A stretch of DNA of 64,000 bases from Candidatus Sericytochromatia bacterium (GTDB taxonomy: Bacteria > Cyanobacteriota > Sericytochromatia > UBA7694 > JACMQJ01), in the NCBI GenBank assembly GCA_026004035.1, contig BPII01000004.1:62001-126000 (forward strand). Direction: 5' to 3'. The position numbers and the translations under genes are program-made. The notes beneath the pieces are model-generated. The model saw only the letters and a program-made list of their open reading frames with translations, did no database searches and was not told the origin of the DNA. Positions 9,301 to 27,873 of this stretch are shown piece after piece; within the stretch, counting starts at the first letter, position 1, and the number at the start of each line of letters is the position of its first letter.

Positions 9301-9417
9301 GGTGAAAATGCTAAGTTATATGGAACTGTTACTAATAAAGAAGTAGCATAAGCAATAAAAGAACAGTTAAATCATGATATAGATAAAAAGAAAATTCATA
9401 TTGATGAGAATTTTTAA
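9301..9417 (+). pseudogene. rplI: Fragment of ribosomal protein L9 gene
   Basis: In one frame this reads GENAKLYGTVTNKEVA, a TAA, then AIKEQLNHDIDKKKIHIDE. It matches the middle of L9, where GKLFGSVTNKEIAEALKEQ and IDKKKI are conserved. It has an internal stop and no N-terminal domain, so it is a decayed fragment. A 15-bp word (AAGTTATATGGAACT) inside it also occurs at 9199-9213, 114 bp upstream. The intact rplI must be elsewhere. The debris marks the left edge of the defence island as a rearrangement point. Confidence 0.65.
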
Positions 9418-9444
9418 ACTAAACAATACTAATAATAATAAGTC

Positions 9445-9755
9445 TTATTCTTTTTCTATAATTAATATATTCTTCACTGACAAATTCTTTTTATTTCTAT
9501 CTTCTAATCTCCCACCATATATGTTTATATACTCTTCTTTAAATAAATCTAATAACTTTAAAAATTGCTTTTGAGATAATCCAATAGATACTCTCCATTT
9601 TATATCTGTTGTTAATTCTTTTATACTTATTCTCATAAATTTTTATTGAAAAAACACTATATTGCTGAACTATTGTAAATATTATACTATAAACTATTTT
9701 CTATTTTTCTAAAAAACTTTATTTTAAAGGTTAAAACAAGTCTATTATAATATAT
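9445..9755 (-). mobile_element. Truncated IS5-like element (5' end and transposase N-terminus)
   Basis: The minus-strand ORF (9445-9636, 63 aa, MRISIKELTTDIKWRVSIGL...) is the N-terminal helix-turn-helix part of an IS5-family DDE transposase. The roughly 115 bp upstream of it (to about 9755) is nearly identical to 52986-53100, so it is a shared IS end that includes the terminal sequence GACTTGTTTTAACC. The catalytic part is missing. It lies directly beside the 3' end of IIG-1 and bounds the island on the left. Confidence 0.75.
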
Positions 9756-9827
9756 ATATTGTTAAATTTTATATCTATTTATATTTACTAATTCAAGTTA
9801 TTGATTTTATTTTAAGAAAATAAAAAA

Positions 9828-12800
9828 TTAATTACCATAATTATATCTAAATTCAATTTCATAATTTTTAATAAATTCAATTTCTTTATTATTCATATAA
9901 TATAAAGGACATATAAAATCATCAATTTTATCAATTATAGCTTTAGATTTTCCAATTTTATATTCTCTAAATGAATCAATTCCTGAATAGTTAGTTTTTT
10001 CATGTAAAATAGAATTTTTTTGTATATCATTGAGATAGTTTTCATATAAAGAATTAATAGTTTGTACCTTATAATCTGTTAAATTATATAAAGGAATTCT
10101 AAAATTTTCAATTTCATACATTTTCAAGCTTAGATTATCTGAATAAATTTGATAAAACCAAAAATATAAGTTACTGCTTAAAATCGCTCCTATTAGATTT
10201 GCAATTTTCTCTTCAAATTGAATATATTTTTCAGTAGAAGATCCTGTGGAAAAATTCGTTATTACTTTAAAATATCTTCCACCAGAGGCTCTATAATAAA
10301 TTTTTTTTGAAGTTGGTGAATTACTTATAAGTTCCTTAATAGGAGTATTTTTTTTAGAAAAAATTTTATCAAGAATTTGTTTCTCAATTTCATAGCTTAT
10401 TTTAGGGTATCTACCTTTTAATTTATAGTTAAAAACATCAATAAACTCAAGTTTTTTTAATAAATTTTCTAGACTATTTTTTTTATTCTTTCTATACATT
10501 TTTGTAGAAAAAATTTTCTCACATTTTGTCAATGTTTTTACAAATATCAAAATAGATGTATTTATAACAGCATTTTTAAATATTGGTTGTGGTCTAACTG
10601 CAAAAGATGAAATTTCTATTTCTTTGCAATTGTTTTCAAGCAATTTATGTATGCCAACCATGGAATCACTTGAAGTAAATGAAAGAGGAATAATATATGA
10701 TAAGCAACCATTTTTTTTAAGTAAATTAAATCCTTTCTCTATGAATAAAGTAAAAGTATCAAGAGAACCTTTTTGTATATTTTTAATTGTTTTTGCACTT
10801 TGATAATTACTTTTAAAGTATTCCTTCTCTTGATTTGAATATGATGCTCCATAAGGTGGATTACCAATAACAATGTCAAAGCCATCAGTAATTCCAAACA
10901 TCCATTCAGAATTAAAAAAATCAGCACTAGAATTTGGATCATAAGGATTCCATTTTGCTAATTTTTTAGCTTCATTTTCATCAAATTTATTTTCTATTAA
11001 CAAATTAATTATTTCATTTCTTATTTGATTATCTTTTTCTATACATTTCTTTTTTTGTTGAAAAGTTTTAGCATTAAAATAATTTTCTCTAACTTTCTTT
11101 AATTTTTCTTCTTTTTCTTTAATTTGACTATGTATATTAGTATCAATAACATTTAAAGAATTAGATAAGAAAGTCAAAACTTCATTTTCATTTCTTTTTA
11201 TATCTATAAGAGCATTAGCACAAACAAATTTAGTTTCTAGATTTGGAAGAGGAATTATTCCAAAATTATAATCATTTCTTTTTATATCTTGGTCTATAAC
11301 AAGAGAAATAAAAAACCTTAATTTACTTATTTGAATAGCTATATTTTGTATATCAACTCCGAATATACAATTTTGAACAATATATAATTTACGTCCATAA
11401 TCCAATTCATTATTTTCAAAAGATTTTTCTATATCATCTATAGTTTTTTCTCTTATTACATAATCATCAATATTATTAGCTTTTTCTATTTGTTTATTTT
11501 TCCATTTTTCATTATTAGGATCAAGTTTGCTTAAAATAAAAACGATTTTGTGTAATATTCCCATAGGAAAAGCACCAGAACCACAAGCAGGATCTAATAT
11601 TTTTATGTTATCTATTGAATTTATTAATAAATTTACTTCTTCATCATCAAATTTATGTTTCTCTTCATTATAAGAAAGTAAATCATTTAATTTTTCTTGT
11701 ATTTCTTTTATTTTTTTCTCATCATTTATATTAAACTTTTCAATAAATTTATTTTCAAAATATTTACTTAAACTTTGAGTTACCATAAAATTTACAATTT
11801 CTCTAGGAGTATAAAAAGAACCTGTTTGTTTTCTAGCATTTTCTTTTGTTTCTTCATTATAAGATGCAAGTAAATTTTCAAAAACTTTTCCTAATAATTC
11901 AGGGTCTAAAGCTACTTCTTGGTCTATTTCTGATGCTTCATCTATAGTAAAATTATAACTTTGTAAAATATCTATAAGACCTCTTACTTTTGCATTTTTT
12001 TCAAGTCCATATTTAGATAAATCACAATTTATTTCTTTTTCTTCAAAAAATAAATAATCAGGTATTTTTGCTTTCTTGCTTTCATTTCTTGAAAATCCCT
12101 CTATATAAACTATTTTATTACTTTCATCCTCTTTATCTAAACAATCAAATAATCCACCATTTAAAAATGGTATATTCTCAAATAATTTTAATATATCTTC
12201 TTCTTTTTCTATTAAAAACTTATCTTTATATCTAAATAAATTCTTTATTCCATATTCTTTTTTATTTTCATTAAAATTTCCTTCTTTTACAAATCTTCTT
12301 TCCTCTATTTTCTGATTTAATGTAGCAAAAAATAAATTTTGTAATATTGCATTGTAATAATTATGTGCTTCTTTATCCTCGTAAAAATCTTTTACTATAT
12401 CTTTTATTTTATTTTTATCAAATAAATCAGGATTTATAAGTCCTTTTTCTTTTATAAACCAAATAAAAATTATTCTTGTTATTAGTCTTATAAGATTAAT
12501 TTCATTTTCATTACTTGGAAAATAAACTTTGTCTAAAGAATAAAAATACCAATTTTGTAATTCTTTATAAAATTGTTTTGTTACAGGTTCAACAGAAAAG
12601 GCTTCTTTTATTTCATTTATACTTGAAAAATTACATTTTGATATTTGATCTATAAATGTTTTATTTGTTAAGCTTGGACTAACAAAAAATGTAAATCTCT
12701 TATAATAAGAAAATTCTCTTCTTATTCCTAAATATTCAACATATATAAATGAAAAACGAAAGTTTCCAGTAGATTTGTCATAAAAAATAAATATTCCTGC

Positions 12801-13076
12801 ATCTATACTATTATCTCTTATTATTTTCTTTCCTAAATCATATTGTAACTTTTTAATACTTCTATGATTTAGTTCTTTACTTGTTTCTATATAAAAAAAC
12901 TTTATTTTAGTAATTTCATCAAATTCTAATTCACCTATACTTTTTATTTCAAAAAAATTTTCATCTCTATAATTAGAATAATCTTCTTGTATTCTTCTGA
13001 AATTGGAATTTCTATAAGAAAAAAAATCTTGTAAGTTTTCTATAAAACAATTATTTATTACTTCTTCTAATAACAT
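9828..13076 (-). CDS. Type IIG-like restriction-methylase, copy 1 (distinct specificity half)
   Basis: 1082 aa of the Eco57I/COG1002 type, joining nuclease and N6-adenine methylase in one chain. Residues about 60-150 (ETSKELNHRSIKKLQ, then DAGIFIFYD) form a nuclease-like N-terminal domain. Methylase motif I ILDPACGSGAF lies near 495 and motif IV VIGNPPY near 735-741. The first 740 residues match copy 2 almost perfectly and copy 3 closely. From NPPY onward the sequence is unrelated to copies 2 and 3 (ASYSNQEKEYF...), and ends in a normal family tail (SKAIIDKIDDFICPLYY). A different DNA target is therefore expected. The frame is intact, and the start is shared with the other copies. It is divergent from rpnA1. 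Confidence 0.92.
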   Translation of the reverse strand: MLLEEVINNCFIENLQDFFSYRNSNFRRIQEDYSNYRDENFFEIKSIGELEFDEITKIKFFYIETSKELNHRSIKKLQYDLGKKIIRDNSIDAGIFIFYDKSTGNFRFSFIYVEYLGIRREFSYYKRFTFFVSPSLTNKTFIDQISKCNFSSINEIKEAFSVEPVTKQFYKELQNWYFYSLDKVYFPSNENEINLIRLITRIIFIWFIKEKGLINPDLFDKNKIKDIVKDFYEDKEAHNYYNAILQNLFFATLNQKIEERRFVKEGNFNENKKEYGIKNLFRYKDKFLIEKEEDILKLFENIPFLNGGLFDCLDKEDESNKIVYIEGFSRNESKKAKIPDYLFFEEKEINCDLSKYGLEKNAKVRGLIDILQSYNFTIDEASEIDQEVALDPELLGKVFENLLASYNEETKENARKQTGSFYTPREIVNFMVTQSLSKYFENKFIEKFNINDEKKIKEIQEKLNDLLSYNEEKHKFDDEEVNLLINSIDNIKILDPACGSGAFPMGILHKIVFILSKLDPNNEKWKNKQIEKANNIDDYVIREKTIDDIEKSFENNELDYGRKLYIVQNCIFGVDIQNIAIQISKLRFFISLVIDQDIKRNDYNFGIIPLPNLETKFVCANALIDIKRNENEVLTFLSNSLNVIDTNIHSQIKEKEEKLKKVRENYFNAKTFQQKKKCIEKDNQIRNEIINLLIENKFDENEAKKLAKWNPYDPNSSADFFNSEWMFGITDGFDIVIGNPPYGASYSNQEKEYFKSNYQSAKTIKNIQKGSLDTFTLFIEKGFNLLKKNGCLSYIIPLSFTSSDSMVGIHKLLENNCKEIEISSFAVRPQPIFKNAVINTSILIFVKTLTKCEKIFSTKMYRKNKKNSLENLLKKLEFIDVFNYKLKGRYPKISYEIEKQILDKIFSKKNTPIKELISNSPTSKKIYYRASGGRYFKVITNFSTGSSTEKYIQFEEKIANLIGAILSSNLYFWFYQIYSDNLSLKMYEIENFRIPLYNLTDYKVQTINSLYENYLNDIQKNSILHEKTNYSGIDSFREYKIGKSKAIIDKIDDFICPLYYMNNKEIEFIKNYEIEFRYNYGN

Positions 13077-13147
13077 AAATAATTTTCAAAAAAATAATGC
13101 TTAAATTTTAACATTAATGGTTTTTTTATTCAAGAATTTTTTTATAT

Positions 13148-13153
13148 TATAAT
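13148..13153 (+). promoter_or_regulatory. -10 box giving a probably leaderless rpnA1 transcript
   Basis: TATAAT ends 6 bases before the rpnA1 ATG, and no Shine-Dalgarno is present. A start site 6-7 bases downstream of the -10 would fall on or beside the ATG. The same arrangement occurs before rpnA2 (TATAAT at 18820-18825). No convincing -35 is visible. Confidence 0.55.
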
Positions 13154-13159
13154 TTATCT

Positions 13160-14199
13160 ATGAAAAAGAAAGAACTATATAAAATTTATGACAGAAATTA
13201 TAAGGAGTTCTTTTCAAACAAATTTGCAATAAGAGAATTATTAGAAACATTTGTAAATGTAGATTTAGTCAAATATATAGATTTTAATAGTGTAGAAATA
13301 ATAAACAAATCATTTATTCTTGATAGTAATAAAGAAAAAGAATCTGATATTATCTATAAAATAAAGCTAAAAGAACAATATTCTGACATATCACTATATA
13401 TAGTCATATTACTAGAATTTCAATCAAGTGTAGATAAAAAAATGCTTTATAGAATGATAGAATATACATTGTTATTATACAAAGAATTAGAAAAAACAAA
13501 TAAAAAGTTACCCCCTGTTTTTCCAATAGTATTATACACAGGTAGTAAAAAATGGAATGTTCCTAATGACTTAAATCAAATAGTAAAAGGTAATGAATTA
13601 CTAAAAGACTATGGACTTAAATTTAAATATTTTCTTTTGGATGTAAATAAATATACAAAAGAACAATTACAAGAAATAGGAAATATAATATCAACATTAT
13701 TTTTAGCTGAAATAATAGAAACTGAAAATATTCAAGAATTAGGAAATCAAATTGATAAATTGATAGAAAATGAAAATAATAAAGAAAATATTAAACAGCT
13801 AATAAAATTTATTCTAAATATTTACAAGAAAGATGAAGAAATAGACTATAATAAATTACAGGAAGACTTAAATAGTAAGTTTAGGAGTGGTTCTATGTTA
13901 GTTGAAAATGTTCTTAAATTTGAAAAAAAAGCTAGAATGAAAGGTTTTAAAGAAGGTATTGAAAAAGGTAAATTGAAGGTAAAATTGAAGGTAAAATTGA
14001 AGGTAGAGTTAAAAGTACAAGGAATAAGTTAAAATTATTATTAAAAAAATTCAGGGATTACCAAAGGAAATAGAAGAAAAAATAAAAATTGTAATGATTT
14101 AAATAAATTAGACTTAATTATTGACAATATTTTTGATATTTCTAGTTTAGATGAAATAAATAACTTTTTAAATATTATTAATAATAAACAAATCTGTTA
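13160..14199 (+). pseudogene. Rpn-family PD-(D/E)XK nuclease, copy A1, 3' end frameshifted
   Basis: The family (Transposase_31/YhgA-like, Rpn) cuts DNA and was named for promoting recombination; antiphage activity has been reported for E. coli members. The open frame is 13160-14032 (290 aa). The nuclease core is complete: KESDIIYKIKL, then LLEFQSS, DKKMLYRMIEY and LPPVFPIVLYTG. After residue 265 a missing A turns the GKIEG repeats into KVKLKVKL. Two more small deletions break the helical C-terminal domain, whose remains reach 14199. An internal AGGAG (13883-13887) and ATG (13895) sit at codon 246. It is divergent from IIG-1. Confidence 0.85.
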
Positions 14200-14203
14200 A
14201 AAT
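14198..14203 (+). promoter_or_regulatory. Extended -10 box of rpnB1, leaderless
   Basis: TGTTAAAAT (an extended -10 with TG upstream) ends 6 bases before the rpnB1 ATG, and no Shine-Dalgarno is present. The same motif precedes rpnB2 at about 19852-19858. This suggests that each rpn gene has its own promoter and makes a leaderless message. Confidence 0.5.
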
Positions 14204-14209
14204 AATTTT

Positions 14210-15223
14210 ATGAAAAATAAAGAGTTATATAAAATCTATGACAGAAATTATAGAGAGTTTTTTTCAAATACATTTGCAATAAAAGAATTATTAGAAACAT
14301 TTGTAAATGTAGATTTAGTCAAATATATAGATTTTAATAGTATAGAGATAATAAACAAATCATTTATTCTTGATAGTAATAAAGAAAAAGAATCTGATAT
14401 TATTTATAAGATAAAATTAAAAGAACAATATTCTGATATATCACTATATATAGTTATATTACTAGAATTTCAATCAAGTGTAGATAAAAAGATGCTTTAT
14501 AGAATGATAGAATATACATTGTTATTATACAAAGAATTAGAAAAAACAAATAAGAAATTACCCCCTGTTTTTCCAATAGTTTTATACACAGGTAGTAAAA
14601 AATGGAATGTTCCTAATGATTTAAATCAAATAGTAAAAGGTAATGAATTACTAAAAGACTATGGACTTAAATTTAAATATTTTCTTTTAGATGTAAATAA
14701 ATATACAAAAGAACAATTACAAGAAATAGGAAATATAATATCAACATTATTTTTAGCTGAAATAATAGAAGCTGAAAACATTCAAGAATTAGGAAATCAA
14801 ATTGATAAATTGATAGAAAATGAAAATAATAAAGAAAATATTAAACAGCTAATAAAATTTATTCTAAATATTTACAAGAAAGATGAAGAAATAGACTATA
14901 ATAAATTACAGGAAGACTTAAATAGTAAGTTTAGGAGTGGTTCTATGTTAGTTGAAAATGTTCTTAAATTTGAAAAAAAAGCTAGAATGAAAGGTTTTAA
15001 AGAAGGTATTGAAGGTAAAATTGAAGGTATTGAAATAGAAGGTGAGAGTAATTGAAAGGTAAAATTGACATTAAAATATTTACTAAAGAAAAAGTTTAAA
15101 GAATTACCAAAGGAAATAGAAGAAAAAATAAATAATTGTAATGATTTAAATAAATTAGACTTAATTATTGACAATATTTTTGATATTTCTAACTTAGATG
15201 AAATTAACAAAATTTTAAATTAA
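14210..15223 (+). pseudogene. Rpn-family nuclease, copy B1, 3' end frameshifted
   Basis: The open frame runs 14210-15055 (281 aa). The nuclease core is nearly identical to A1, with changes such as KELYKIYDRNYREFFSNTFAIK at the N terminus. The frame breaks just after a short GKIEG repeat. The remaining C-terminal helical domain (KYLLKKKFKELPKEIEEKI...) continues in other frames to 15223, where it would overlap the IIG-2 stop tail-to-tail, as in the intact B2 copy. The internal AGGAG (14933-14937) and ATG (14945) are conserved, but the short product would be only 36 aa. The nuclease domain is complete, so a truncated active enzyme is conceivable. Confidence 0.85.
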
Positions 15224-18200
15224 TTATTCTCAATAATACTAATCTCTTCATTTGTCAAATCATACAACTGATAAACTAATCTATCAATTTCTTTTTCTAA
15301 ATCAGTTGTGTCAGCTTGATTATTTTTTTCTTTGATTTCTAATATTTTATTAACTAAATTTTCAATTTGTTTTGTATATTCTATGTTTTTATTTTGAACT
15401 AAAGGTGAATTTTCAATGTATATCTTTGCTCCATAACTACCTTTCTCCTAATGTAGCAACTGAATTTTTAGTCCAATATCTTAATAATTTAGAGTTTAAT
15501 AATCCTAAGAAATACTTACTATAATCACCTGTTATAAAAAATGTGCTATCTAAGAAGAAAATAATTTTTAGGAACAAATGAGTAACTTATTGTATTTGTT
15601 ATCTATTCCAAACAACTTTTTCTTTTTCAAACTCTTGATAATAAGTATTAGCACATCTTTGTAAAGCATACCATTCATATCTTATTCCTGTTTCATCCTT
15701 ATTTCTTTGAAATAATTTATCTTTATAATTTAATAAATAATTATACAAACATGGATATTGTTTTTTAAATTCTTCTTCTGCTTTTATACTACTACCTTGA
15801 ATATTTTTATCTTCATGCAAAGGAAAATGCCAAGGTATAAATATAATCCACAAACCAGCCCATTGATAAGAATATCTTTTAATATCTCTACCTCTTAGAA
15901 TAGGTTTAATAATTTGTTCAGTTTTTTGTCTTTCTTCTGTAGTTTTGCAATTATTAAGAATTTCATTCTTCTTGTTAGTATCAATTATGAAAGCTTCGTT
16001 TAGTCCTGTTTTTACACCACGATTTATTTTAACATCCCAATCTTTAAGAGGTTTTCCAATTTTTTCTATTTTTTCTTTTAATTTTTGTTCTTTTTCATTA
16101 CCAATATACCATTGTTGAGATGATAGATTTTTAATTAAAACAGCATTATTTTTTACTTCTTGTGCAATGTCAATATTTTTATTTTCTTTTTTCAAAAGAG
16201 TTAATCCTAACATTTCATTATTGTATTTAGATTTTTCTATGAATAAAATATTTGTATCAACTGTTGCATTTTCAAATACGTTTGGTCCCAAATCAATAAG
16301 TAACTTAGGATTATATTTTAAGAAAAAACTTCTTAATTTTTTACCATAACCTGCTCTCATCCATTTATTAGAAGTAATATAAACAAGAATACCTTTGTCT
16401 TTTAATAAATTAATACCTTTTTCATAAAATAAGCAATAAATATCACCTGTTCTTTCTAGAGTTTGATAGTTATATTCAGAGTATAAATTAGCTAATTTAC
16501 CACTATTTTTTTGTAATTGAATATAAGGCGGATTACCAATAACAATGTCGAAGCCATCAGTAATTCCAAACATCCATTCAGAATTAAAAAAATCAGCACT
16601 AGAATTTGGATCATAAGGATTCCATTTTGCTAATTTTTTAGCTTCATTTTCATCAAATTTATTTTCTATTAACAAATTAATTATTTCATTTCTTATTTGA
16701 TTATCTTTTTCTATACATTTCTTTTTTTGTTGAAAAGTTTTAGCATTAAAATAATTTTCTCTAACTTTCTTTAATTTTTCTTCTTTTTCTTTAATTTGAC
16801 TATGTATATTAGTATCAATAACATTTAAAGAATTAGATAAGAAAGTCAAAACTTCATTTTCATTTCTTTTTATATCTATAAGAGCATTAGCACAAACAAA
16901 TTTAGTTTCTAGATTTGGAAGAGGAATTATTCCAAAATTATAATCATTTCTTTTTATATCTTGGTCTATAACAAGAGAAATAAAAAACCTTAATTTACTT
17001 ATTTGAATAGCTATATTTTGTATATCAACTCCGAATATACAATTTTGAACGATATATAATTTACGTCCATAATCCAATTCATTATTTTCAAAAGATTTTT
17101 CTATATCATCTATAGTTTTTTCTCTTATTACATAATCATCAATATTATTAGCTTTTTCTATTTGTTTATTTTTCCATTTTTCATTATTAGGATCAAGTTT
17201 GCTTAAAATAAAAACGATTTTGTGTAATATTCCCATAGGAAAAGCACCAGAACCACAAGCAGGATCTAATATTTTTATGTTATCTATTGAATTTATTAAT
17301 AAATTTACTTCTTCATCATCAAATTTATGTTTCTCTTCATTATAAGAAAGTAAATCATTTAATTTTTCTTGTATTTCTTTTATTTTTTTCTCATCATTTA
17401 TATTAAACTTTTCAATAAATTTATTTTCAAAATATTTACTTAAACTTTGAGTTACCATAAAATTTACAATTTCTCTAGGAGTATAAAAAGAACCTGTTTG
17501 TTTTCTAGCATTTTCTTTTGTTTCTTCATTATAAGATGCAAGTAAATTTTCAAAAACTTTTCCTAATAATTCAGGGTCTAAAGCTACTTCTTGGTCTATT
17601 TCTGATGCTTCATCTATAGTAAAATTATAACTTTGTAAAATATCTATAAGACCTCTTACTTTTGCATTTTTTTCAAGTCCATATTTAGATAAATCACAAT
17701 TTATTTCTTTTTCTTCAAAAAATAAATAATCAGGTATTTTTGCTTTCTTGCTTTCATTTCTTGAAAATCCCTCTATATAAACTATTTTATTACTTTCATC
17801 CTCTTTATCTAAACAATCAAATAATCCACCATTTAAAAATGGTATATTCTCAAATAATTTTAATATATCTTCTTCTTTTTCTATTAAAAACTTATCTTTA
17901 TATCTAAATAAATTCTTTATTCCATATTCTTTTTTATTTTCATTAAAATTTCCTTCTTTTACAAATCTTCTTTCCTCTATTTTCTGATTTAATGTAGCAA
18001 AAAATAAATTTTGTAATATTGCATTGTAATAATTATGTGCTTCTTTATCCTCGTAAAAATCTTTTACTATATCTTTTATTTTATTTTTATCAAATAAATC
18101 AGGATTTATAAGTCCTTTTTCTTTTATAAACCAAATAAAAATTATTCTTGTTATTAGTCTTATAAGATTAATTTCATTTTCATTACTTGGAAAATAAACT

Positions 18201-18748
18201 TTGTCTAAAGAATAAAAATACCAATTTTGTAATTCTTTATAAAATTGTTTTGTTACAGGTTCAACAGAAAAGGCTTCTTTTATTTCATTTATACTTGAAA
18301 AATTACATTTTGATATTTGATCTATAAATGTTTTATTTGTTAAGCTTGGACTAACAAAAAATGTAAATCTCTTATAATAAGAAAATTCTCTTCTTATTCC
18401 TAAATATTCAACATATATAAATGAAAAACGAAAGTTTCCAGTAGATTTGTCATAAAAAATAAATATTCCTGCATCTATACTATTATCTCTTATTATTTTC
18501 TTTCCTAAATCATATTGTAACTTTTTAATACTTCTATGATTTAGTTCTTTACTTGTTTCTATATAAAAAAACTTTATTTTAGTAATTTCATCAAATTCTA
18601 ATTCACCTATACTTTTTATTTCAAAAAAATTTTCATCTCTATAATTAGAATAATCTTCTTGTATTCTTCTGAAATTGGAATTTCTATAAGAAAAAAAATC
18701 TTGTAAGTTTTCTATAAAACAATTATTTATTACTTCTTCTAATAACAT
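15220..18748 (-). pseudogene. Type IIG-like restriction-methylase, copy 2, C-terminus broken
   Basis: The open frame is 15599-18748 (1049 aa). It is almost identical to IIG-1 up to NPPY and to IIG-3 after it (differences such as NRGVK/NCGIK and WAGLW/WADLW). It stops at EKVVWNR, where IIG-3 has EKVIWNIVTN: one base is lost there, and two further single-base gains lie near 15550 and 15445. The remaining 115 residues, including the final tail, are still recognisable down to 15220. The catalytic and methylase parts are complete, but loss of the end of the specificity region probably inactivates it. It may serve as a donor for recombination. Confidence 0.9.
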
Positions 18749-18831
18749 AAATAATTTTCAAAAAAATAATGCTTAAATTTTAACATTAATGGTTTTTTTA
18801 TTCAAGAATTTTTTTATATTATAATTTATCT

Positions 18832-19831
18832 ATGAAAAAGAAAGAACTATATAAAATTTATGACAGAAATTATAAGGAGTTCTTTTCAAACAAATTTGCA
18901 ATAAGAGAATTATTAGAAACATTTGTAAATGTAGATTTAGTCAAATATATAGATTTTAATAGTGTAGAAATAATAAACAAATCATTTATTCTTGATAGTA
19001 ATAAAGAAAAAGAATCTGATATTATCTATAAAATAAAGCTAAAAGAACAATATTCTGACATATCACTATATATAGTCATATTACTAGAATTTCAATCAAG
19101 TGTAGATAAAAAAATGCTTTATAGAATGATAGAATATACATTGTTATTATACAAAGAATTAGAAAAAACAAATAAAAAGTTACCCCCTGTTTTTCCAATA
19201 GTATTATACACAGGTAGTAAAAAATGGAATGTTCCTAATGACTTAAATCAAATAGTAAAAGGTAATGAATTACTAAAAGACTATGGACTTAAATTTAAAT
19301 ATTTTCTTTTAGATGTAAATAAATATACAAAAGAACAATTACAAGAAATAGGAAATATAATATCAACATTATTTTTAGCTGAAATAATAGAAACTGAAAA
19401 TATTCAAGAATTAGGAAATCAAATTGATAAATTGATAGAAAATGAAAATAATAAAGAAAACATTAAACAGCTAATAAAATTTATTCTAAATATTTACAAG
19501 AAAGATGAAGAAATAGACTATAATAAATTACAGGAAGACTTAAATAGTAAGTTTAGGAGTGGTTCTATGTTAGTTGAAAATGTTCTTGAATTTGAAAGAA
19601 AAGCTGAATTAAGAAGGTATTGAAAAAGGTAAAATTGAAGGTAAGATTGAAGGTAAAATTGAAACATTAAAAACAAAAACATTAAAATTATTATTAAAAA
19701 AATTCAGAGAGTTACCAAAGGAAATAGAAGAAAAAATAAATAATTGTAATGATTTAAATAAATTAGACTTAATTATTGACAATATTTTTGATATTTCTAG
19801 TTTAGATGAAATAAATAACTTTTTAAAATGA
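18832..19831 (+). pseudogene. Rpn-family nuclease, copy A2, 3' end frameshifted
   Basis: The open frame is 18832-19623 (263 aa). The N-terminal 245 residues match A1 essentially completely. The frame breaks just after the internal start (ENVLEFERKAELRRY, stop). The GIEKGKIEGKIEGKIE repeat and the helical C-terminal domain (LLLKKFRELPKEIEEKI to DEINNFLK) remain in another frame to 19831. AGGAG (19555-19559) and an in-frame ATG (19567) lie at codon 246. TATAAT 6 bases before the ATG suggests a leaderless transcript. It is divergent from IIG-2. Confidence 0.85.
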
Positions 19832-19865
19832 TTAATTAATAAACAAATCTGTTAAAATAATTTTT

Positions 19866-20912
19866 ATGAAAAATAAAGAGTTATATAAAATCTATGACAG
19901 AAATTATAGAGAGTTTTTTTCAAATACATTTGCAATAAAAGAATTATTAGAAACATTTGTAAATGTAGATTTAGTCAAGTATATAGATTTTAATAGTATA
20001 GAGATAATAAACAAATCATTTATTCTTGATAGTAATAAAGAAAAAGAATCTGATATTATTTATAAGATAAAATTAAAAGAACAATATTCTGATATCTCAC
20101 TATATATAGTCATATTACTAGAATTTCAATCAAGTGTAGATAAAAAGATGCTTTATAGAATGATAGAATATACATTGTTATTATACAAAGAATTAGAAAA
20201 AACAAATAAAAAGTTACCCCCTGTTTTTCCAATAGTTTTATACACAGGTAGTAAAAAATGGAATGTTCCTAATGATTTAAATCAAATAGTAAAAGGTAAT
20301 GAATTGCTAAAAGACTATGGACTTAAATTTAAATATTTTCTTTTAGATGTAAATAAATATACAAAAGAACAATTACAAGAAATAGGAAATATAATATCAA
20401 CATTATTTTTAGCTGAAATAATAGAAGCTGAAAACATTCAAGAATTAGGAAATCAAATTGATAAATTGATAGAAAATGAAAATAATACAGAAAATATTAA
20501 ACAGCTAATAAAATTTATTCTAAATATTTACAAGAAAGATGAAGAAATAGACTATAATAAATTACAGGAAGACTTAAATAGTAAGTTTAGGAGTGGTTCT
20601 ATGTTAGTTGAAAATGTTCTTAAATTTGAAAAAAAAGCTAGAATGAAAGGTTTTAAAGAAGGTATTGAAAAAGGTATTGAAAAAGGTATTGAAAAAGGTA
20701 TTGAAAAAGGTAAAATTGAAGGTTTGAAAGAAGGTGAATTGAAAGGTAAAATTGGGACATTAAAATATTTACTAAAGAAAAAGTTTAAAGAATTACCAAA
20801 GGAAATAGAAGAAAAAATAAATAATTGTAATGATTTAAATAAATTAGACTTAATTATTGACAATATTTTTGTTATTTCTAACTTAGATGAAATTAACAAA
20901 ATTTTAAATTAA
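19866..20912 (+). CDS. Rpn-family PD-(D/E)XK nuclease, copy B2 (the only intact copy)
   Basis: 348 aa. The nuclease domain covers residues 1-245: KESDIIYKIKL and LLEFQSS supply the acidic/Q active-site pattern, followed by DKKMLYRMIEY and LPPVFPIVLYTG. After codon 246 (ATG at 20601, preceded by AGGAG 7 bases upstream) come MLVENVLKFEKKARMKGF, four GIEK repeats and a helical C-terminal domain ending ISNLDEINKILN. An internal product would be 103 aa. The extended -10 close to the main ATG and lack of Shine-Dalgarno suggest leaderless expression. The stop overlaps the stop of IIG-3 by 3 bases, tail-to-tail. A role in antiphage defence or recombination is inferred from the family and the island context. 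Confidence 0.9.
   Translation: MKNKELYKIYDRNYREFFSNTFAIKELLETFVNVDLVKYIDFNSIEIINKSFILDSNKEKESDIIYKIKLKEQYSDISLYIVILLEFQSSVDKKMLYRMIEYTLLLYKELEKTNKKLPPVFPIVLYTGSKKWNVPNDLNQIVKGNELLKDYGLKFKYFLLDVNKYTKEQLQEIGNIISTLFLAEIIEAENIQELGNQIDKLIENENNTENIKQLIKFILNIYKKDEEIDYNKLQEDLNSKFRSGSMLVENVLKFEKKARMKGFKEGIEKGIEKGIEKGIEKGKIEGLKEGELKGKIGTLKYLLKKKFKELPKEIEEKINNCNDLNKLDLIIDNIFVISNLDEINKILN
20589..20603 (+). promoter_or_regulatory. Internal Shine-Dalgarno and start codon within rpnB2
   Basis: AGGAG at 20589-20593, 7 bases, then ATG at 20601, in frame at codon 246. The identical signal is at 13883/13895, 14933/14945 and 19555/19567 in the other copies. The main starts lack any Shine-Dalgarno, so this internal site looks the better ribosome entry. 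It would make a short protein consisting of the repeat region plus the C-terminal domain. Confidence 0.65.
20661..20708 (+). repeat. Four 12-bp repeats encoding GIEK
   Basis: GGTATTGAAAAA occurs four times in tandem in rpnB2, extending into related GKIEG and LKEG units. The other rpn copies have one GIEK-like unit or different GKIEG counts. Twelve-base units keep the frame, so copy number can vary without killing the protein. Confidence 0.9.
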
Positions 20913-23900
20913 TTATTCTCAATAATACTAATCTCTTCATTTGTCAAATCATACAATTGATAAACTAATCTATCAATTTCTTTTTCTAAATCAGTTGTGT
21001 CAGCTTGATTATTCTTTTCTTTGATTTCTAATATTTTATTAACTAAATTTTCAATTTGTTTTGTATATTCTATGTTTTTATTTTGAACTAAAGGTGAATT
21101 TTCAATGTATATTTTTGCTCCACAACCACCTTTTCCTAGTGTTGCAACTGAATTTTTAGTCCAATATCTTAATAATTTAGAGTTTAATAATCCTAAGAAA
21201 TACTTACTATAATCACCTGTTATAAAAAATGTGCTATTAAGAAGAAAATAATCTTTAGGAACAAATGAGTAACTTATTGTATTTGTTACTATATTCCAAA
21301 TAACTTTTTCTTTTTCAAACTCTTGATAATAAGTATTAGCACATCTTTGTAAAGCATACCATTCATATCTTATTCCTGTTTCATCCTTATTTCTTTGAAA
21401 TAATTTATCTTTATAATTTAATAAATAATTATACAAACATGGATATTGTTTTTTAAATTCTTCTTCTGCTTTTATACTACTACCTTGAATATTTTTATCT
21501 TCATGCAAAGGAAAATGCCAAGGTATAAATATAATCCACAAATCAGCCCATTGATAAGAATATCTTTTAATATCTCTACCTCTTAGAATAGGTTTAATAA
21601 TTTGTTCAGTTTTTTGTCTTTCTTCTGTAGTTTTGCAATTATTAAGAATTTCATTCTTCTTGTTAGTATCAATTATGAAAGCTTCGTTTAGTCCTGTTTT
21701 TATACCACAATTTATTTTAACATCCCAATCTTTAAGAGGTTTTCCAATTTTTTCTATTTTTTCTTTTAATTTTTGTTCTTTTTCATTACCAATATACCAT
21801 TGTTGAGATGATAGATTTTTAATTAAAACAGCATTATTTTTTACTTCTTGTGCAATGTTAATATTTTTATTTTCTTTTTTCAAAAGAGTTAATCCTAACA
21901 TTTCATTATTGTATTTAGATTTTTCTATGAATAAAATATTTGTATCAACTGTTGCATTTTCAAATACGTTTGGTCCCAAATCAATAAGTAACTTAGGATT
22001 ATATTTTAAGAAAAAACTTCTTAATTTTTTACCATAACCTGCTCTCATCCATTTATTAGAAGTAATATAAACAAGAATACCTTTGTCTTTTAATAAATTA
22101 ATACCTTTTTCATAAAATAAGCAATAAATATCACCTGTTCTTTCTAGAGTTTGATAGTTATATTCAGAGTATAAATTAGCTAATTTACCACTATTTTTTT
22201 GTAATTGAATATAAGGCGGATTACCAATAACAATGTCGAAGCCATCAGTAATTCCAAACATCCATTCAGAATTAAAAAAATCAGCACTAGAATTTGGATC
22301 ATAAGGATTCCATTTTGCTAATTTTTTAGCTTCATTTTCATCAAATTTATTTTCTATTAACAAATTAATTATTTCATTTCTTATTTGATTATCTTTTTCT
22401 ATACATTTCTTTTTTTGTTGAAAAGTTTTAGCATTAAAATAATTTTCTCTAACTTTCTTTAATTTTTCTTCTTTTTCTTTAATTTGACTATGTATATTAG
22501 TATCAATAACATTTAAAGAATTAGATAAGAAAGTCAAAACTTCATTTTCATTTCTTTTTATATCTATAAGAGCATTAGCACAAACAAATTTAGTTTCTAG
22601 ATTTGGAAGAGGAATTATTCCAAAATTATAATCATTTCTTTTTATATCTTGGTCTATAACAAGAGAAATAAAAAACCTTAATTTACTTATTTGAATAGCT
22701 ATATTTTGTATATCAACTCCGAATATACAATTTTGAACGATATATAATTTACGTCCATAATCCAATTCATTATTTTCAAAAGATTTTTCTATATCATCTA
22801 TAGTTTTTTCTCTTATTACATAATCATCAATATTATTAGCTTTTTCTATTTGTTTATTTTTCCATTTTTCATTATTAGGATCAAGTTTGCTTAAAATAAA
22901 AACGATTTTGTGTAATATTCCCATAGGAAAAGCACCAGAACCACAAGCAGGATCTAATATTTTTATGTTATCTATTGAATTTATTAATAAATTTACTTCT
23001 TCATCATCAAATTTATGTTTCTCTTCATTATAAGAAAGTAAATCATTTAATTTTTCTTGTATTTCTTTTATTTTTTTCTCATCATTTATATTAAACTTTT
23101 CAATAAATTTATTTTCAAAATATTTACTTAAACTTTGAGTTACCATAAAATTTACAATTTCTCTAGGAGTATAAAAAGAACCTGTTTGTTTTCTAGCATT
23201 TTCTTTTGTTTCTTCATTATAAGATGCAAGTAAGTTTTCAAAAACTTTTCCTAATAATTCAGGGTCTAAAGCTACTTCTTGGTCTATTTCTGATGCTTCA
23301 TCTATAGTAAAATTATAACTTTGCAAAATATCTATAAGACCTCTTACTTTTGCATTTTTTTCAAGTCCATATTTAGATAAATCACAATTTATTTCTTTTT
23401 CTTCAAAAAATAAATAATCAGGTATTTTTGCTTTCTTACTTTCATTTCTTGAAAATCCATCTATATAAACTATTTTATTACTTTCATCCTCCTTATCTAA
23501 ACAATCAAATAATCCACCATTTAAAAATGGTATATTCTCAAATAATTTTAATATATCTTCTTCTTTTTCTATTAAAAACTTATCTTTATATCTAAATAAA
23601 TTCTTTATTCCATATTCTTTTTTATTTTCATTAAAATTTCCTTCTTTTACAAATCTTCTTTCTTCTATTTTCTGATTTAATGTAGCAAAAAATAAATTTT
23701 GTAATATTGCATTGTAATAATTATGTGCTTCTTTATCCTCGTAAAAATCTTTTACTATATCTTTTATTTTATTTTTATCAAATAAATTAGGATTTATAAG
23801 TCCTTTTTCTTTTATAAACCAAATAAAAATTATTCTTGTTATTAGTCTTATAAGATTAATTTCATTTTCATTACTTGGAAAATAAACTTTGTCTAAAGAA

Positions 23901-24436
23901 TAAAAATACCAATTTTGTAATTCTTTATAAAATTGTTTTGTTACAGGTTCAACAGAAAAGGCTTCTTTTATTTCATTTATACTTGAAAAATTACATTTTG
24001 ATATTTGATCTATAAATGTTTTATTTGTTAAGCTTGGACTAACAAAAAATGTAAATCTCTTATAGTAAGAGAATTCTCTTCTTATTCCTAAATATTCAAC
24101 ATATATAAATGAAAAACGAAAGTTTTTAGTTACTTTATCATAAAAAATAAATATTCCTGCATCTATACTATTATCTCTTATTATTTTCTTTCCTAAATCA
24201 TATTGTAACTTTTTAATACTTCTATGATTTAGTTCTTTACTTGTTTCTATATAAAAAAACTTTATTTTAGTAATTTCATCAAATTCTAATTGACCTATAC
24301 TTTTTATTTCAGAAAAATTTTCATCTCTATAATTAGAATAATCTTCTTGTATTCTTCTGAAATTGGAATTTCTATAAGAAAAAAAATCTTGTAAGTTTTC
24401 TATAGAACAATTATTTATTACTTTTTCTAATGACAT
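20909..24436 (-). CDS. Type IIG-like restriction-methylase, copy 3 (full length)
   Basis: 1175 aa, the complete form. Nuclease-like N-terminal domain with DAGIFIFYD near residue 95, QTGSFYTPREIVNFMV before motif I, ILDPACGSGAF near 495 and VIGNPPY near 737. The specificity half starts IQLQKNSGKLAN and ends with a family-typical tail (DLEKEIDRLVYQLYDLTNEEISIIE). The N-terminal third differs from copies 1 and 2 at scattered sites (MSLEKVINNCSIENL against MLLEEVINNCFIENL; KVTKNF against KSTGNF). The 3' two thirds are nearly identical to copy 2, which points to gene conversion. It is divergent from the helicase gene with 101 bp between, so these two are probably the original pair. Confidence 0.95.
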   Translation of the reverse strand: MSLEKVINNCSIENLQDFFSYRNSNFRRIQEDYSNYRDENFSEIKSIGQLEFDEITKIKFFYIETSKELNHRSIKKLQYDLGKKIIRDNSIDAGIFIFYDKVTKNFRFSFIYVEYLGIRREFSYYKRFTFFVSPSLTNKTFIDQISKCNFSSINEIKEAFSVEPVTKQFYKELQNWYFYSLDKVYFPSNENEINLIRLITRIIFIWFIKEKGLINPNLFDKNKIKDIVKDFYEDKEAHNYYNAILQNLFFATLNQKIEERRFVKEGNFNENKKEYGIKNLFRYKDKFLIEKEEDILKLFENIPFLNGGLFDCLDKEDESNKIVYIDGFSRNESKKAKIPDYLFFEEKEINCDLSKYGLEKNAKVRGLIDILQSYNFTIDEASEIDQEVALDPELLGKVFENLLASYNEETKENARKQTGSFYTPREIVNFMVTQSLSKYFENKFIEKFNINDEKKIKEIQEKLNDLLSYNEEKHKFDDEEVNLLINSIDNIKILDPACGSGAFPMGILHKIVFILSKLDPNNEKWKNKQIEKANNIDDYVIREKTIDDIEKSFENNELDYGRKLYIVQNCIFGVDIQNIAIQISKLRFFISLVIDQDIKRNDYNFGIIPLPNLETKFVCANALIDIKRNENEVLTFLSNSLNVIDTNIHSQIKEKEEKLKKVRENYFNAKTFQQKKKCIEKDNQIRNEIINLLIENKFDENEAKKLAKWNPYDPNSSADFFNSEWMFGITDGFDIVIGNPPYIQLQKNSGKLANLYSEYNYQTLERTGDIYCLFYEKGINLLKDKGILVYITSNKWMRAGYGKKLRSFFLKYNPKLLIDLGPNVFENATVDTNILFIEKSKYNNEMLGLTLLKKENKNINIAQEVKNNAVLIKNLSSQQWYIGNEKEQKLKEKIEKIGKPLKDWDVKINCGIKTGLNEAFIIDTNKKNEILNNCKTTEERQKTEQIIKPILRGRDIKRYSYQWADLWIIFIPWHFPLHEDKNIQGSSIKAEEEFKKQYPCLYNYLLNYKDKLFQRNKDETGIRYEWYALQRCANTYYQEFEKEKVIWNIVTNTISYSFVPKDYFLLNSTFFITGDYSKYFLGLLNSKLLRYWTKNSVATLGKGGCGAKIYIENSPLVQNKNIEYTKQIENLVNKILEIKEKNNQADTTDLEKEIDRLVYQLYDLTNEEISIIENN

Positions 24437-24537
24437 AAATAATTTTCAAAAAAAATAATACCTATTAATTTTAACATTAATTTTTTTTTTGTATTATAAT
24501 TGTTTTAATTTGGATTTTCTTATTAAAATCTTTAGCT
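24437..24537. promoter_or_regulatory. Divergent promoter region between IIG-3 and the helicase
   Basis: 101 bp between divergent starts. TATAAT at 24495-24500 could drive the helicase. The 40-50 bases nearest IIG-3 (AAATAATTTTCAAAAAA...) match the regions upstream of IIG-1 and IIG-2, where the same spot faces rpnA instead of a helicase. The IIG promoter was therefore duplicated with its gene. Confidence 0.5.
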
Positions 24538-27500
24538 ATGGGGAATTTTATAACAAATCAAGGAAATATAACATTATCAGAAAGAATTAGAGATTTAGTG
24601 AAATATTCTAATGAGCTAAGCTTTCTTGTAGGATATTTTTATTTTTCTGGTATTCAAGAATTATACGAAAGTTTAAAAAACAAAAATGAAAGTAATGAGA
24701 ACTTTCTATTGAAAATTCTTGTTGGATTAGATATTGATTTTATTAATAATAATATTATTGAACTTGTAAAAACAAAAAATAATAATTCAAATTCTGATTT
24801 AGTAAATGAATTTATGACTTCATTAAAAAAATTTATAAATTCTGATGAATATGATAATAATAAATTTATTGAAGAAATAAAATTTTTTATTTCTCTTATA
24901 AATAGTGGTAAATTAATTATAAGAAAAACTCGTGAACCTAATCATGCAAAACTATATTTATTTAATATTTCACAAAATTATAGGGAACTTTTAGAAAAAA
25001 CATTTATAACGGGTAGTAGTAATTTAACAAGAGCAGGATTAGTAAATCAAAATGAATTTAATGTTGAGATAAAAGATTATGGATTTGATGAAGCAAAAGA
25101 ATATTTTGACAAATTATGGGAAAAATCTATAAAAATAACTGAAAATAATGAATTAAAACAAAATCTTTTAAAAATAATAAATAGTGAAACTCATTTAAGA
25201 AAAATAACTCCTTACGAAGCATTTGTTTTTTCATTAAAAATATATATAGATACTTACAAAAGTGATGATGAAAATATTAGTAATACAATAAATACTATAA
25301 AAAACATTTTAAATGAAAAATATTATAAATTATACAATTATCAAATAGATGCAATAAAACAAGGATTATCAATAATAAAAAAAAATAATGGTGTAATAAT
25401 AGCTGATGTTGTAGGATTAGGAAAAAGTATAATAGCATCTTGTATAGCAAAAGCTTTAAAAAAAAGAGGCATAATTATATGTCCTCCTGGACTTATAGGT
25501 GATTATGATTCAGGATGGAAAAAATATGTTCAAGATTTTAAATTATATGATTGGGAAATTTTTTCTTTAGGTGATTTAGAAAGAGCATTAAAATTTATAA
25601 GTAATAATAATGATATTGAAGCTATTATAATAGATGAAGCACATAGATTTAGGAATGATAAAACAAAATCTTATGATTTGCTTAGTAATATTTGTAGAAA
25701 TAAAATAGTAATTTTGTTAAGTGCAACACCATTTAATAATAATCCAAATGATATATTGTCTCTTTTAAGCTTATTTACTTTTCCTAAGAATTCTAATTTG
25801 ACTATAGATGGTTATTTAAGAGATGAATTTATATATTACAGACAAATATTTGAAAAAATTAATTATATAAATAAATACTACAATGATGATAGAAAAATTG
25901 ATAAAGTTAGAGATTATTATTCAAAAGTTTTTGAAAATGAAAATAACCAAAATATAGACTTAAATAAATTAAAAGAAAAAGCTATAGAAATTTCAAAAAA
26001 AATTAAAAATATAATTGAACCTGTAGTTATAAGAAGAAATAGATTAGATATAAAGAATAATCCTCTATATTCAGAAGAAGTAAAAAATCTTTCTGAAATA
26101 GAAAATCCTATTGAAGTATTTTTTGAATTAAATGAAGATCAACTAAATTTCTATGAAGAGGTATTAAATATTTTTACAGAAGATAAATTTAAAGGAGCTA
26201 TTTATAGACCTTTCCACTATGAAAAAAATATTGAAGATATTCAAAATATAAACTTAAATGAGGAAGAAAATTTTGAATATATACAACAAGATAGTTTATT
26301 TTTACTAATAAAAAGATTAATAGTAAAAAGATTTGAAAGTTCATTTGGAGCTTTTAGAAATACCATAGAAAATTTTAAGAATATTACGCAAAAAATACTT
26401 AATTTTATAGAAAAAACTAATAAATATCTTTTAGATAAAAAATTAATAGAAAATCTTTCTGAATTAGAACCTGAAGAAATAGAAGAAGAATTAAAAAAAT
26501 ATTCTGAAAAATTACAAGAAGAAAATAAAGCAACTTATCATAAAGTTTATGAAATAAATAAAATGCAGAAAAAAAACGATTTTATAAAGGATATAAAAAG
26601 TGATTTGAATATATTTGAAAATATTATTAGTAAAATAGATAAGTTAAATTTAGTTAGAAATGATCCTAAATTTGAAGCTTTGTGTAATAAAATTAAAAAA
26701 TTACAAAAAAAAGAACCAAACAGAAAAATAGTAATTTTTTCAGAATATTTAGACACTGTTAAACATCTTAAACCATTATTATTAGAAAGATTTAATCAAA
26801 GAGTACTAATTATAGAAAAAAGTATAAGTCGTGAAGATGTTAAAAAAATAAATGAAAATTTTGATGCTTCATTTAAAGAAAAGAAAAATGATTATGATAT
26901 TTTACTTGGGACAGATAGAATATCTGAAGGTTTTAATTTAAATAGAGCTGGAGTAGTTATAAACTATGATATACCTTGGAATCCTGTTAGAGTTATACAA
27001 AGAGTAGGTAGAATAAATCGTATAAGTAAAAAAGTTTTTGATAAACTCTATATAATTAATTTTTTTCCAACTAAAAAAGGTGAGGATATAGTTAAATCAA
27101 GAGAAATAGCATCTAATAAAATGTTTATGATACACAATATACTAGGTGAAGATTCAAAAATATTTTCAATAGATGAAAAACCTGAAGCATCAGCTCTTTA
27201 CAGTAAATTACAACAAAACCCTGATGATTTAGAAGAAGAAAGTTTTTATACTAAAATGATATCTCTTTATAATAAAATTCAAAAAGAAAATCCAGATATA
27301 ATAAATACTATATCAAATTTTCCAAAAAGAATAAAAGTAGCAAAAAAATATAATAAAAGTGAATTAATAGTTATAGCTAAAAAAATAAACTTATATATAT
27401 ATTATTATGATTATGAAAATAATAAATTTTCTATAAAGTATTTTCAAGACATATTTGATAGTATTTGTTGTGATAAAGATACTGAAAGCTGTAATTTAAG

Positions 27501-27873
27501 TGATAAATTTTGGGATACTTATAAACAATTAAAAGAATATAACGAAAGTCAAAGAAGATATCAAAATTCAAATAGTATAGAACAACAAGCACTAAATAAT
27601 TTAAAAACAATTATTAGGTCTAATAATAGTAATGAAGTACTAAAATTTTTTGATTTTATTAAAAATTTAATAAAAGATATAGAATCTTACGGAACTTTAA
27701 AATATCATACATTAAAAAAAATATCTAAAATAAAACATAATGATCAGGAAAGTATTATAAATACAATGAATGAATTGTCAAAATATATTAAATTTAATTA
27801 TCTAGAAAAAGAAAAAAATATAAATATAGAAAAGGAAATAATTATTTCTATAGAAAATTTAGTTAGTTCTTAG
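24538..27873 (+). CDS. PLD-nuclease/SNF2-type helicase of the defence island
   Basis: 1111 aa. The N-terminal phospholipase-D-like nuclease domain contains HAKLYLF (about residue 141) and GSSNLTRAGLVNQNEF (about 160). The helicase core has Walker A IIADVVGLGKSIIAS (about 288), DEAH box IIIDEAHRFRND (about 365), LLSATPFNNNP, then VIFSEYLDTVKHL and the C-terminal motifs LGTDRISEGFNL and WNPVRVIQRVGRINRI. A helical insert separates the two helicase lobes. Proteins of this build are commonly found beside Eco57I-class methylases in defence loci, with components reminiscent of DISARM (SNF2 helicase, PLD, adenine methylase), but drmA/drmB-type genes are absent here. It probably translocates on DNA and cuts unmodified targets; that is an inference. 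Confidence 0.9.
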   Translation: MGNFITNQGNITLSERIRDLVKYSNELSFLVGYFYFSGIQELYESLKNKNESNENFLLKILVGLDIDFINNNIIELVKTKNNNSNSDLVNEFMTSLKKFINSDEYDNNKFIEEIKFFISLINSGKLIIRKTREPNHAKLYLFNISQNYRELLEKTFITGSSNLTRAGLVNQNEFNVEIKDYGFDEAKEYFDKLWEKSIKITENNELKQNLLKIINSETHLRKITPYEAFVFSLKIYIDTYKSDDENISNTINTIKNILNEKYYKLYNYQIDAIKQGLSIIKKNNGVIIADVVGLGKSIIASCIAKALKKRGIIICPPGLIGDYDSGWKKYVQDFKLYDWEIFSLGDLERALKFISNNNDIEAIIIDEAHRFRNDKTKSYDLLSNICRNKIVILLSATPFNNNPNDILSLLSLFTFPKNSNLTIDGYLRDEFIYYRQIFEKINYINKYYNDDRKIDKVRDYYSKVFENENNQNIDLNKLKEKAIEISKKIKNIIEPVVIRRNRLDIKNNPLYSEEVKNLSEIENPIEVFFELNEDQLNFYEEVLNIFTEDKFKGAIYRPFHYEKNIEDIQNINLNEEENFEYIQQDSLFLLIKRLIVKRFESSFGAFRNTIENFKNITQKILNFIEKTNKYLLDKKLIENLSELEPEEIEEELKKYSEKLQEENKATYHKVYEINKMQKKNDFIKDIKSDLNIFENIISKIDKLNLVRNDPKFEALCNKIKKLQKKEPNRKIVIFSEYLDTVKHLKPLLLERFNQRVLIIEKSISREDVKKINENFDASFKEKKNDYDILLGTDRISEGFNLNRAGVVINYDIPWNPVRVIQRVGRINRISKKVFDKLYIINFFPTKKGEDIVKSREIASNKMFMIHNILGEDSKIFSIDEKPEASALYSKLQQNPDDLEEESFYTKMISLYNKIQKENPDIINTISNFPKRIKVAKKYNKSELIVIAKKINLYIYYYDYENNKFSIKYFQDIFDSICCDKDTESCNLSDKFWDTYKQLKEYNESQRRYQNSNSIEQQALNNLKTIIRSNNSNEVLKFFDFIKNLIKDIESYGTLKYHTLKKISKIKHNDQESIINTMNELSKYIKFNYLEKEKNINIEKEIIISIENLVSS

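Follow-up and report, generated by a model that had tools for sequence, protein, structure and literature searches.

An rpn-interleaved array of methylase genes with one front joined to different rears at NPPY, and its predicted PLD-SNF2 helicase partner, in a Sericytochromatia bacterium

The exchange of TRDs and the presence of several specificities at one locus are already known. In Type III methylases of H. pylori, TRDs move at the DNA coding for conserved motifs (summary in PMC3983042). In Type I systems with duplicated hsdS genes (PMC7394358, PMC4948785), one motor/nuclease is combined with alternative specificity genes and recombination takes place between repeats; separate S subunits are exchanged, and inversion was shown in the pneumococcal case. 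Type IIG enzymes contain an N-terminal cleavage domain (PMC3874165). Type ISP enzymes, e.g., LlaBIII (PDB 4xqk; PMC3874165), carry a Mrr-like nuclease, a translocase, a gamma-class methylase and a C-terminal TRD in one chain, and BrxX/PglX of BREX, a system that also contains PglZ and BrxC/PglY, is a large N6-methylase with a C-terminal recognition region. For Rpn proteins, DNA endonuclease activity and an anti-phage role as intragenic toxin-antitoxin genes were reported elsewhere (PMC10327210).

The window analysed in our study is a stretch of 64,000 nucleotides from a Candidatus Sericytochromatia bacterium (contig BPII01000004.1). The list of open reading frames contained three large methylase genes on the minus strand, IIG-1 (9828-13076, 1082 aa), IIG-2 (15599-18748, 1049 aa), and IIG-3 (20909-24436, 1175 aa). 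A sequence-only reading of the window had noticed that the three genes have about 740 residues in common, that IIG-1 then continues into an unrelated rear and that IIG-2 and IIG-3 have a common one. Alignment of the three genes confirmed the first point, with 98-100% identity over residues 1-742, and comparison of the rears confirmed the second. The same-strand repeats of over 2 kb that it described were also present; the full repeat was found to be larger, a direct tandem with a unit of about 5.68 kb including an rpn pair, in which 10851-18799 and 16523-24490 were 98.4% identical (7991 aligned bases). The plus-strand order is rear D, front A1, rpn pair, broken rear C, front A2, rpn pair, rear C, front A3, and a helicase in the opposite direction. 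The locus thus reaches past 9828-24436, up to the divergent helicase gene at 24538. Its features are as follows.

9828..10850, minus strand: rear D of methylase 1 (IIG-1), intact, 340 aa; remaining methylase domain and predicted target recognition; single copy in the genome
10851..13076, minus strand: front A1 of methylase 1, residues 1-742; N-terminal domain, helical region and N6-methylase motifs through NPPY; Eco57I/N6_Mtase profile
10851..10865, minus strand: junction; common DNA stops after GGTAATCCNCCTTAT (NPPY codons; last base 10851)
10851..16522, no strand: tandem unit 1 (front, rpn pair, rear C), 5.67 kb
13160..14032, plus strand: rpn gene 1, Rpn/YhgA-like nuclease (PF04754/TIGR01784), C-terminus frameshifted
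14210..15055, plus strand: rpn gene 2, C-terminus frameshifted
15223..16522, minus strand: rear C of methylase 2 (IIG-2), broken; three single-base indels within its final ~400 bases, frame ends at 15599
16523..18748, minus strand: front A2 of methylase 2; mosaic, 5' part as A1 and 3' part as A3 in the variable-site table
16523..22210, no strand: tandem unit 2 (front, rpn pair, rear C), 5.69 kb
18832..19623, plus strand: rpn gene 3, C-terminus frameshifted
19866..20912, plus strand: rpn gene 4, full length, with EKGI-type four-residue repeats
20909..22210, minus strand: rear C of methylase 3 (IIG-3), intact, 433 aa; TaqI-like C-terminal specificity domain
22211..24436, minus strand: front A3 of methylase 3, the copy adjoining the helicase
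24538..27873, plus strand: PLD-SNF2 helicase, predicted partner nuclease/translocase, 1111 aa; divergent from methylase 3; PLDc_2, SNF2 and Helicase_C

On the coding strand, the junction of methylase 1 reads ...GGTAATCCACCTTAT followed by GGAGCA, where the final T of the NPPY codons is 10851. The copies with junctions at 16523 and 22211, and one on another contig of the genome (C5), had the identical junction base. A sharp boundary at the NPPY codons had been proposed from the letters, and the base-level comparison placed the end of the common DNA exactly there. Since the identity is 98% over kilobases and the fourth copy, on its separate contig, has the same junction base, chance is excluded. 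Rear D showed no DNA similarity to rear C or to rear E, the rear found on C5, and the protein similarity was 28-30%. One front is joined at one base to three rears, C, D, and E, in this genome. Three working specificities in the array itself were not supported. In the rear of IIG-2, single-base indels stop the frame at 15599 and reading-frame remnants continue to 15223, so that two intact genes are present here and the third is on C5. Here, unlike in the Type III case, it is the whole rear after motif IV that moves, the gamma-class methylase has a PLD-SNF2 helicase as its predicted partner, and a single array of one genome contains the copies. Unlike Type I hsdS, the present genes combine recognition and methylase in one chain, and their repeats have the same orientation.

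The A1 and A2 fronts were identical save for 3 sites near the 3' end. Of the sites that distinguish A1 from A3, all those through alignment position 1305 had the A1 base in A2, and those at 1800, 2301, and 2322 had the A3 base. For 40 substitutions, the probability that the A3-like sites fall precisely on the three most 3' positions is about 1e-4. This clean mosaic bears the mark of an unequal crossover of A1 with A3 in an ancestor D-A1-rpn-C-A3, of which it is the expected product. The A2 front had zero private changes, and the rpn genes and rear C differed by ~1-2% between the units, with the excess differences between unit 1 and unit 2 located in the rpn repeat tracts and the decayed IIG-2 tail. 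Because the units differ more in the rpn genes and rear C than in the front, one duplication is not a full explanation, and a later gene conversion is needed; probably, the fronts underwent exchange or conversion once more after the duplication. The recombination between same-strand copies foreseen in the sequence-only reading therefore stood in part, as the mosaic IIG-2 front and the loss or duplication of units, and failed as a source of new fusions. Every front runs into its own rear, and crossovers between fronts can thus only delete or duplicate whole units; this geometry ruled out front-repeat recombination as the origin of new fusions, which need exchange at the conserved motif DNA itself.

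The same repeats raise the question of the assembly. With 46 contigs, 75% completeness, and 4% contamination, the genome is a draft in which exact repeats of ~2 kb can be misassembled, and a chimeric repeat path would also resemble the A2 mosaic. The second unit would then be a misjoined repeat or a strain mixture. We regard this as very unlikely, since the units differ from each other in the rpn genes and rear C, indels included, and the separate contig has the same front joined to another rear at the same base in an open frame.

The fourth copy, on C5, contained the common front (98% protein identity) and the third rear, E, in an open frame; no helicase was found within the 19 kb examined. 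An orphan rear F without a front (L014:15739-16446, last 235 residues) was also observed on C5, beside a run of rpn genes, and it was about 84% identical in DNA to the F rear on contig C1. The C1 copy (L015:8362-12198) is broken. Its residues 1 to ~415 matched the common front with ~96% DNA identity, after which, at the conserved FYTPREIV block and not at NPPY, the core of another methylase begins and continues into rear F. The NPPY junctions and this switch together indicate that at least two conserved motif blocks served as exchange points. The broken state of IIG-2, the C1 copy, the orphan F rear, and three of the four array rpn genes would suit decaying debris, in which the rpn genes and methylase copies are spreading repeats without present function. 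However, the frames of methylases 1 and 3, of the C5 copy, and of the helicase are open over their full length and contain conserved motifs, and debris seems a poor description of the whole, with a low probability. Two further observations were made in the window. Just downstream of rear D, 9400-9827 is a dispersed repeat with 32 matches in the genome, probably a mobile-element remnant; as a mobility signal of the array it was rejected, because only one of the 32 matches (C1:176672-176781) lay within ~0.5 kb of another methylase array. At 3872-5255, two overlapping frames were found, one of which resembles a McrB/MoxR-type AAA ATPase by eye, with no Pfam match.

Among the aligned relatives from many phyla and the copies of this genome, fronts that are 62-78% identical can carry unrelated rears. 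The front identity and the rear bit-score ratio were 77% and 0.17 in L060/L061, 70% and 0.08 in L068/L072, and 69% and 0.06 in L062/L063, respectively. In 20-residue bins, the identity fell from 90-100% in the 20 residues before NPPY to 0-20% in the 20 residues after it, whereas control pairs with related rears (L059/L060 and L072/L073) showed no collapse at NPPY. Part of this drop reflects the strong conservation of the block before NPPY. The copies in this genome, with a near-identical 2.2 kb followed by unrelated DNA, are on their base-level alignment beyond explanation by block conservation. Rear E was 55% identical to the L072 rear and the matching fronts only 46%; similarly, rear F was 60% identical to the L062 rear and the fronts about 50%. 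The rears E and F are thus nearer to distant genomes than their fronts are, which indicates that rears travel independently of fronts.

The front is rare in the phylum. In 385 other genomes, only three matched the N-terminal 300 residues (E 1e-30), and those matches were partial, from residue 117 onward, with 41-48% identity; G001, the only other genome of the family that was compared, had no close homologue of the N-terminal 300 residues. In G001 a YhcG-type nuclease gene was seen to adjoin the methylase. A plasmid search gave seven matches, all distant. Eighteen relatives, defined as loci whose match begins within the first 29 front residues, had this N-terminus, and exactly one front copy was found per genome in them. 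The single front in those genomes and its rarity among the 385 point to a front that was gained horizontally and then amplified locally.

In all 18 of these relatives, a homologue of the helicase (37-53% identity) was present upstream of the methylase on the same strand. The two genes usually abut directly, with a 4-base overlap in several. In four loci, accessory genes were observed between them, namely AlbA_2 (L060:368-1744), a nucleotidyltransferase-HepT pair (L068:4476-5101), PDDEXK_3 (L080:7532-7909), and DUF559 (L081:4112-4465). Loci without this N-terminus mostly had distant helicases or none found, the exceptions being L087 (32%), L098 (46%), and a few short fragments of higher identity. 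An apparent helicase-methylase fusion of 2210 residues in L098 was discarded because its frame crosses masked bases. The best PADLOC match of the helicase in the window was the HKD+Snf2 helicase C3a139 (E 2.9e-37, residues 7-879), with PLD/HKD and SNF2 in one protein. Its model matched RapA and other SNF2 motors with TM-scores of 0.2-0.3 on the full chain, which identified the motor only. The gene at 24538-27873 is the only close helicase copy in this 75%-complete genome, against five front copies. A second, distantly related pair of helicase and Eco57I-type methylase was observed in the same genome (G000:C37:2065-7300).

The methylases contain a gamma-class N6-methylase and a C-terminal TRD in one chain, as Type IIG enzymes do, on the evidence of the Eco57I, N6_Mtase, and TaqI_C profiles and of fold matches to CamA, BrxX, and MmeI-type enzymes; LlaBIII was also among the matches (mean pLDDT of the model 71; the fold searches covered solved structures). 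The best PADLOC profiles are named REase_MTase_IIG, and the C5 copy stands without a helicase in the stretch examined. Each protein might accordingly be a true Type IIG enzyme that unites methylase and N-terminal nuclease and works by itself, in which case the helicase would be an unrelated neighbour. The N-terminal 150 residues were modelled confidently, and their order, alpha-beta-beta-beta-alpha-beta, is that of PD-(D/E)XK folds; taken by itself, this order would fit a degenerate nuclease fold. Nevertheless, a PD-(D/E)XK nuclease sought there by profile and by conserved acidic residues was not found. The N-terminal domain had no Pfam nuclease match, and in an alignment of 16 proteins none of the acidic columns within the first 150 residues came near invariance, whereas R72, K75, K76, Q78, and K83 were invariant. 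With the helicase linkage in every relative that has this N-terminus, the self-contained enzyme is improbable, and the label Type IIG given in the sequence-only reading is probably wrong. The linkage also speaks against cleavage at a fixed distance with no separate translocase, as is expected of that type. In comparison with Type ISP, which has all its parts in one polypeptide, two genes were found in the window and in the relatives, and the nuclease is of PLD type. BrxX was among the best fold and profile matches; the BREX methylase models nevertheless scored far below the cut-off (BREX_1 MTaseX 92 vs. 500), and no other BREX gene was recognised among the scanned neighbours of the array. For DISARM, in which the methylase is accompanied by the DrmA helicase, DrmB, and DrmC, the DrmD score was 140 against a cut-off of 610. 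The scanned flanking genes were housekeeping genes (PEPCK, SpoU, AI-2E transporter, LptD, and LptF/G) or unmatched. Judged by its anatomy, the system may be a split Type ISP-like or a minimal BREX-like pair.

All four rpn genes of the window scored above the PF04754 and TIGR01784 cut-offs, and 14 of the 19 rpn matches in the genome sit in the three methylase arrays, those of the window, C5, and C1. Like the described Rpn proteins (PMC10327210, PMC5350276), they have variable four-residue C-terminal repeats; their interleaving with methylase copies differs from those cases and was seen in none of 80 related loci. Three of the four genes were frameshifted in or near the EKGI-type repeat tracts, and the sole full C-terminal domain, the antitoxin part in E. 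coli Rpn, is that of 19866-20912. The rpn genes may have a stabilising effect on the array, or an action independent of it.

A distant relative of the pair is present on the Lactococcus plasmid pJM1F (NZ_CP016750.2), where a helicase lies beside an N-6 methylase with a front of 29% identity and an apparently exchangeable TaqI-like specificity domain. There, unlike here, an inverted spare domain is present, and it becomes homologous to the active domain ~100 residues after NPPY. The region (L141:4233-9038) contained 321-base arms that are 71% complementary, beside an annotated Mpi-type recombinase, and looks like an invertible version. The array in the window might likewise be an active phase-variable switch that rearranges within the population and alters the methylase present, and hence restriction and gene regulation. 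The near-identical 2.2-kb direct repeats would favour this, as would the zero private A2 changes, which imply recent recombination, and the pJM1F locus with its oppositely oriented spare domain beside an annotated invertase. On the other hand, the array contained no recognisable recombinase gene, repeats in direct orientation lead to deletion or duplication and not to reversible inversion, and all copies retain their own upstream region with no single expression site evident. Such a switch seems rather unlikely.

We consider it probable that the locus encodes a two-gene restriction system of a translocase-nuclease and a methylase, in which rears were exchanged at motif DNA and copy number changed by unequal front crossover. 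The PLD-SNF2 translocase/nuclease (24538-27873) and a gamma-class N6-adenine methylase would form a two-component restriction-modification-type defence. The common front, with the N-terminal domain, the cofactor motif, and NPPY, would be the constant part and the rear an exchangeable cassette joined at motif IV. The N-terminal domain travels with the helicase subfamily, which suggests that it is a docking face. Each rear probably sets a different target. The rears are likely to have entered where short stretches of motif DNA are highly conserved (WMFG..DGFDIVIGNPPY, and in one copy the FYTPREIV block) and permit homologous recombination. Unequal crossover between the 2.2-kb fronts could then have converted D-A-rpn-C-A into D-A-rpn-C-A-rpn-C-A, so that the methylase was amplified together with rpn genes of toxin-antitoxin type. 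Each intact methylase, presumably expressed from its own conserved upstream region, would mark its own target in the host and, with the helicase-nuclease, attack DNA without that mark. Given one close helicase and five front copies, the simplest arrangement is that one helicase serves all intact methylases, although a further helicase may be missing from the 75%-complete assembly. The orientation of the helicase, divergent from methylase 3, stands against this two-gene system, as the operons of the relatives are co-directional.

A wider form of the two-gene system is possible but doubtful. In it, one PLD-SNF2 motor-nuclease would serve a chromosomal library of methylases with one docking front and with rear cassettes gained by recombination at motif IV, and the rpn genes, of toxin-antitoxin type, would accompany the spare copies and either maintain the array or make it mobile. 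If true, it would amount to a defence of "one motor, many readers" whose specificity library is addicted. As far as the open PubMed Central literature and the searched collections show, the new elements are the exchange of whole rears at NPPY across a helicase-linked family, a base-exact triple case in one genome, the unequal-crossover mosaic, and the rpn-interleaved array.

The locus provides a natural case, with base-exact breakpoints, of a large single-chain methylase that changes its specificity half, and the unit of exchange is everything after NPPY, among relatives of many phyla. NPPY would thus be a cut point that nature already uses, and one at which recognition halves of BREX-like and Type ISP-like enzymes might be joined. 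Whether many methylases have one translocase in common becomes directly testable. The rpn genes, proposed as promoters of recombination and shown to be anti-phage, are linked here to a defence array that has visibly recombined. The locus shows how a defence enzyme can gain and lose target specificities by recombination.
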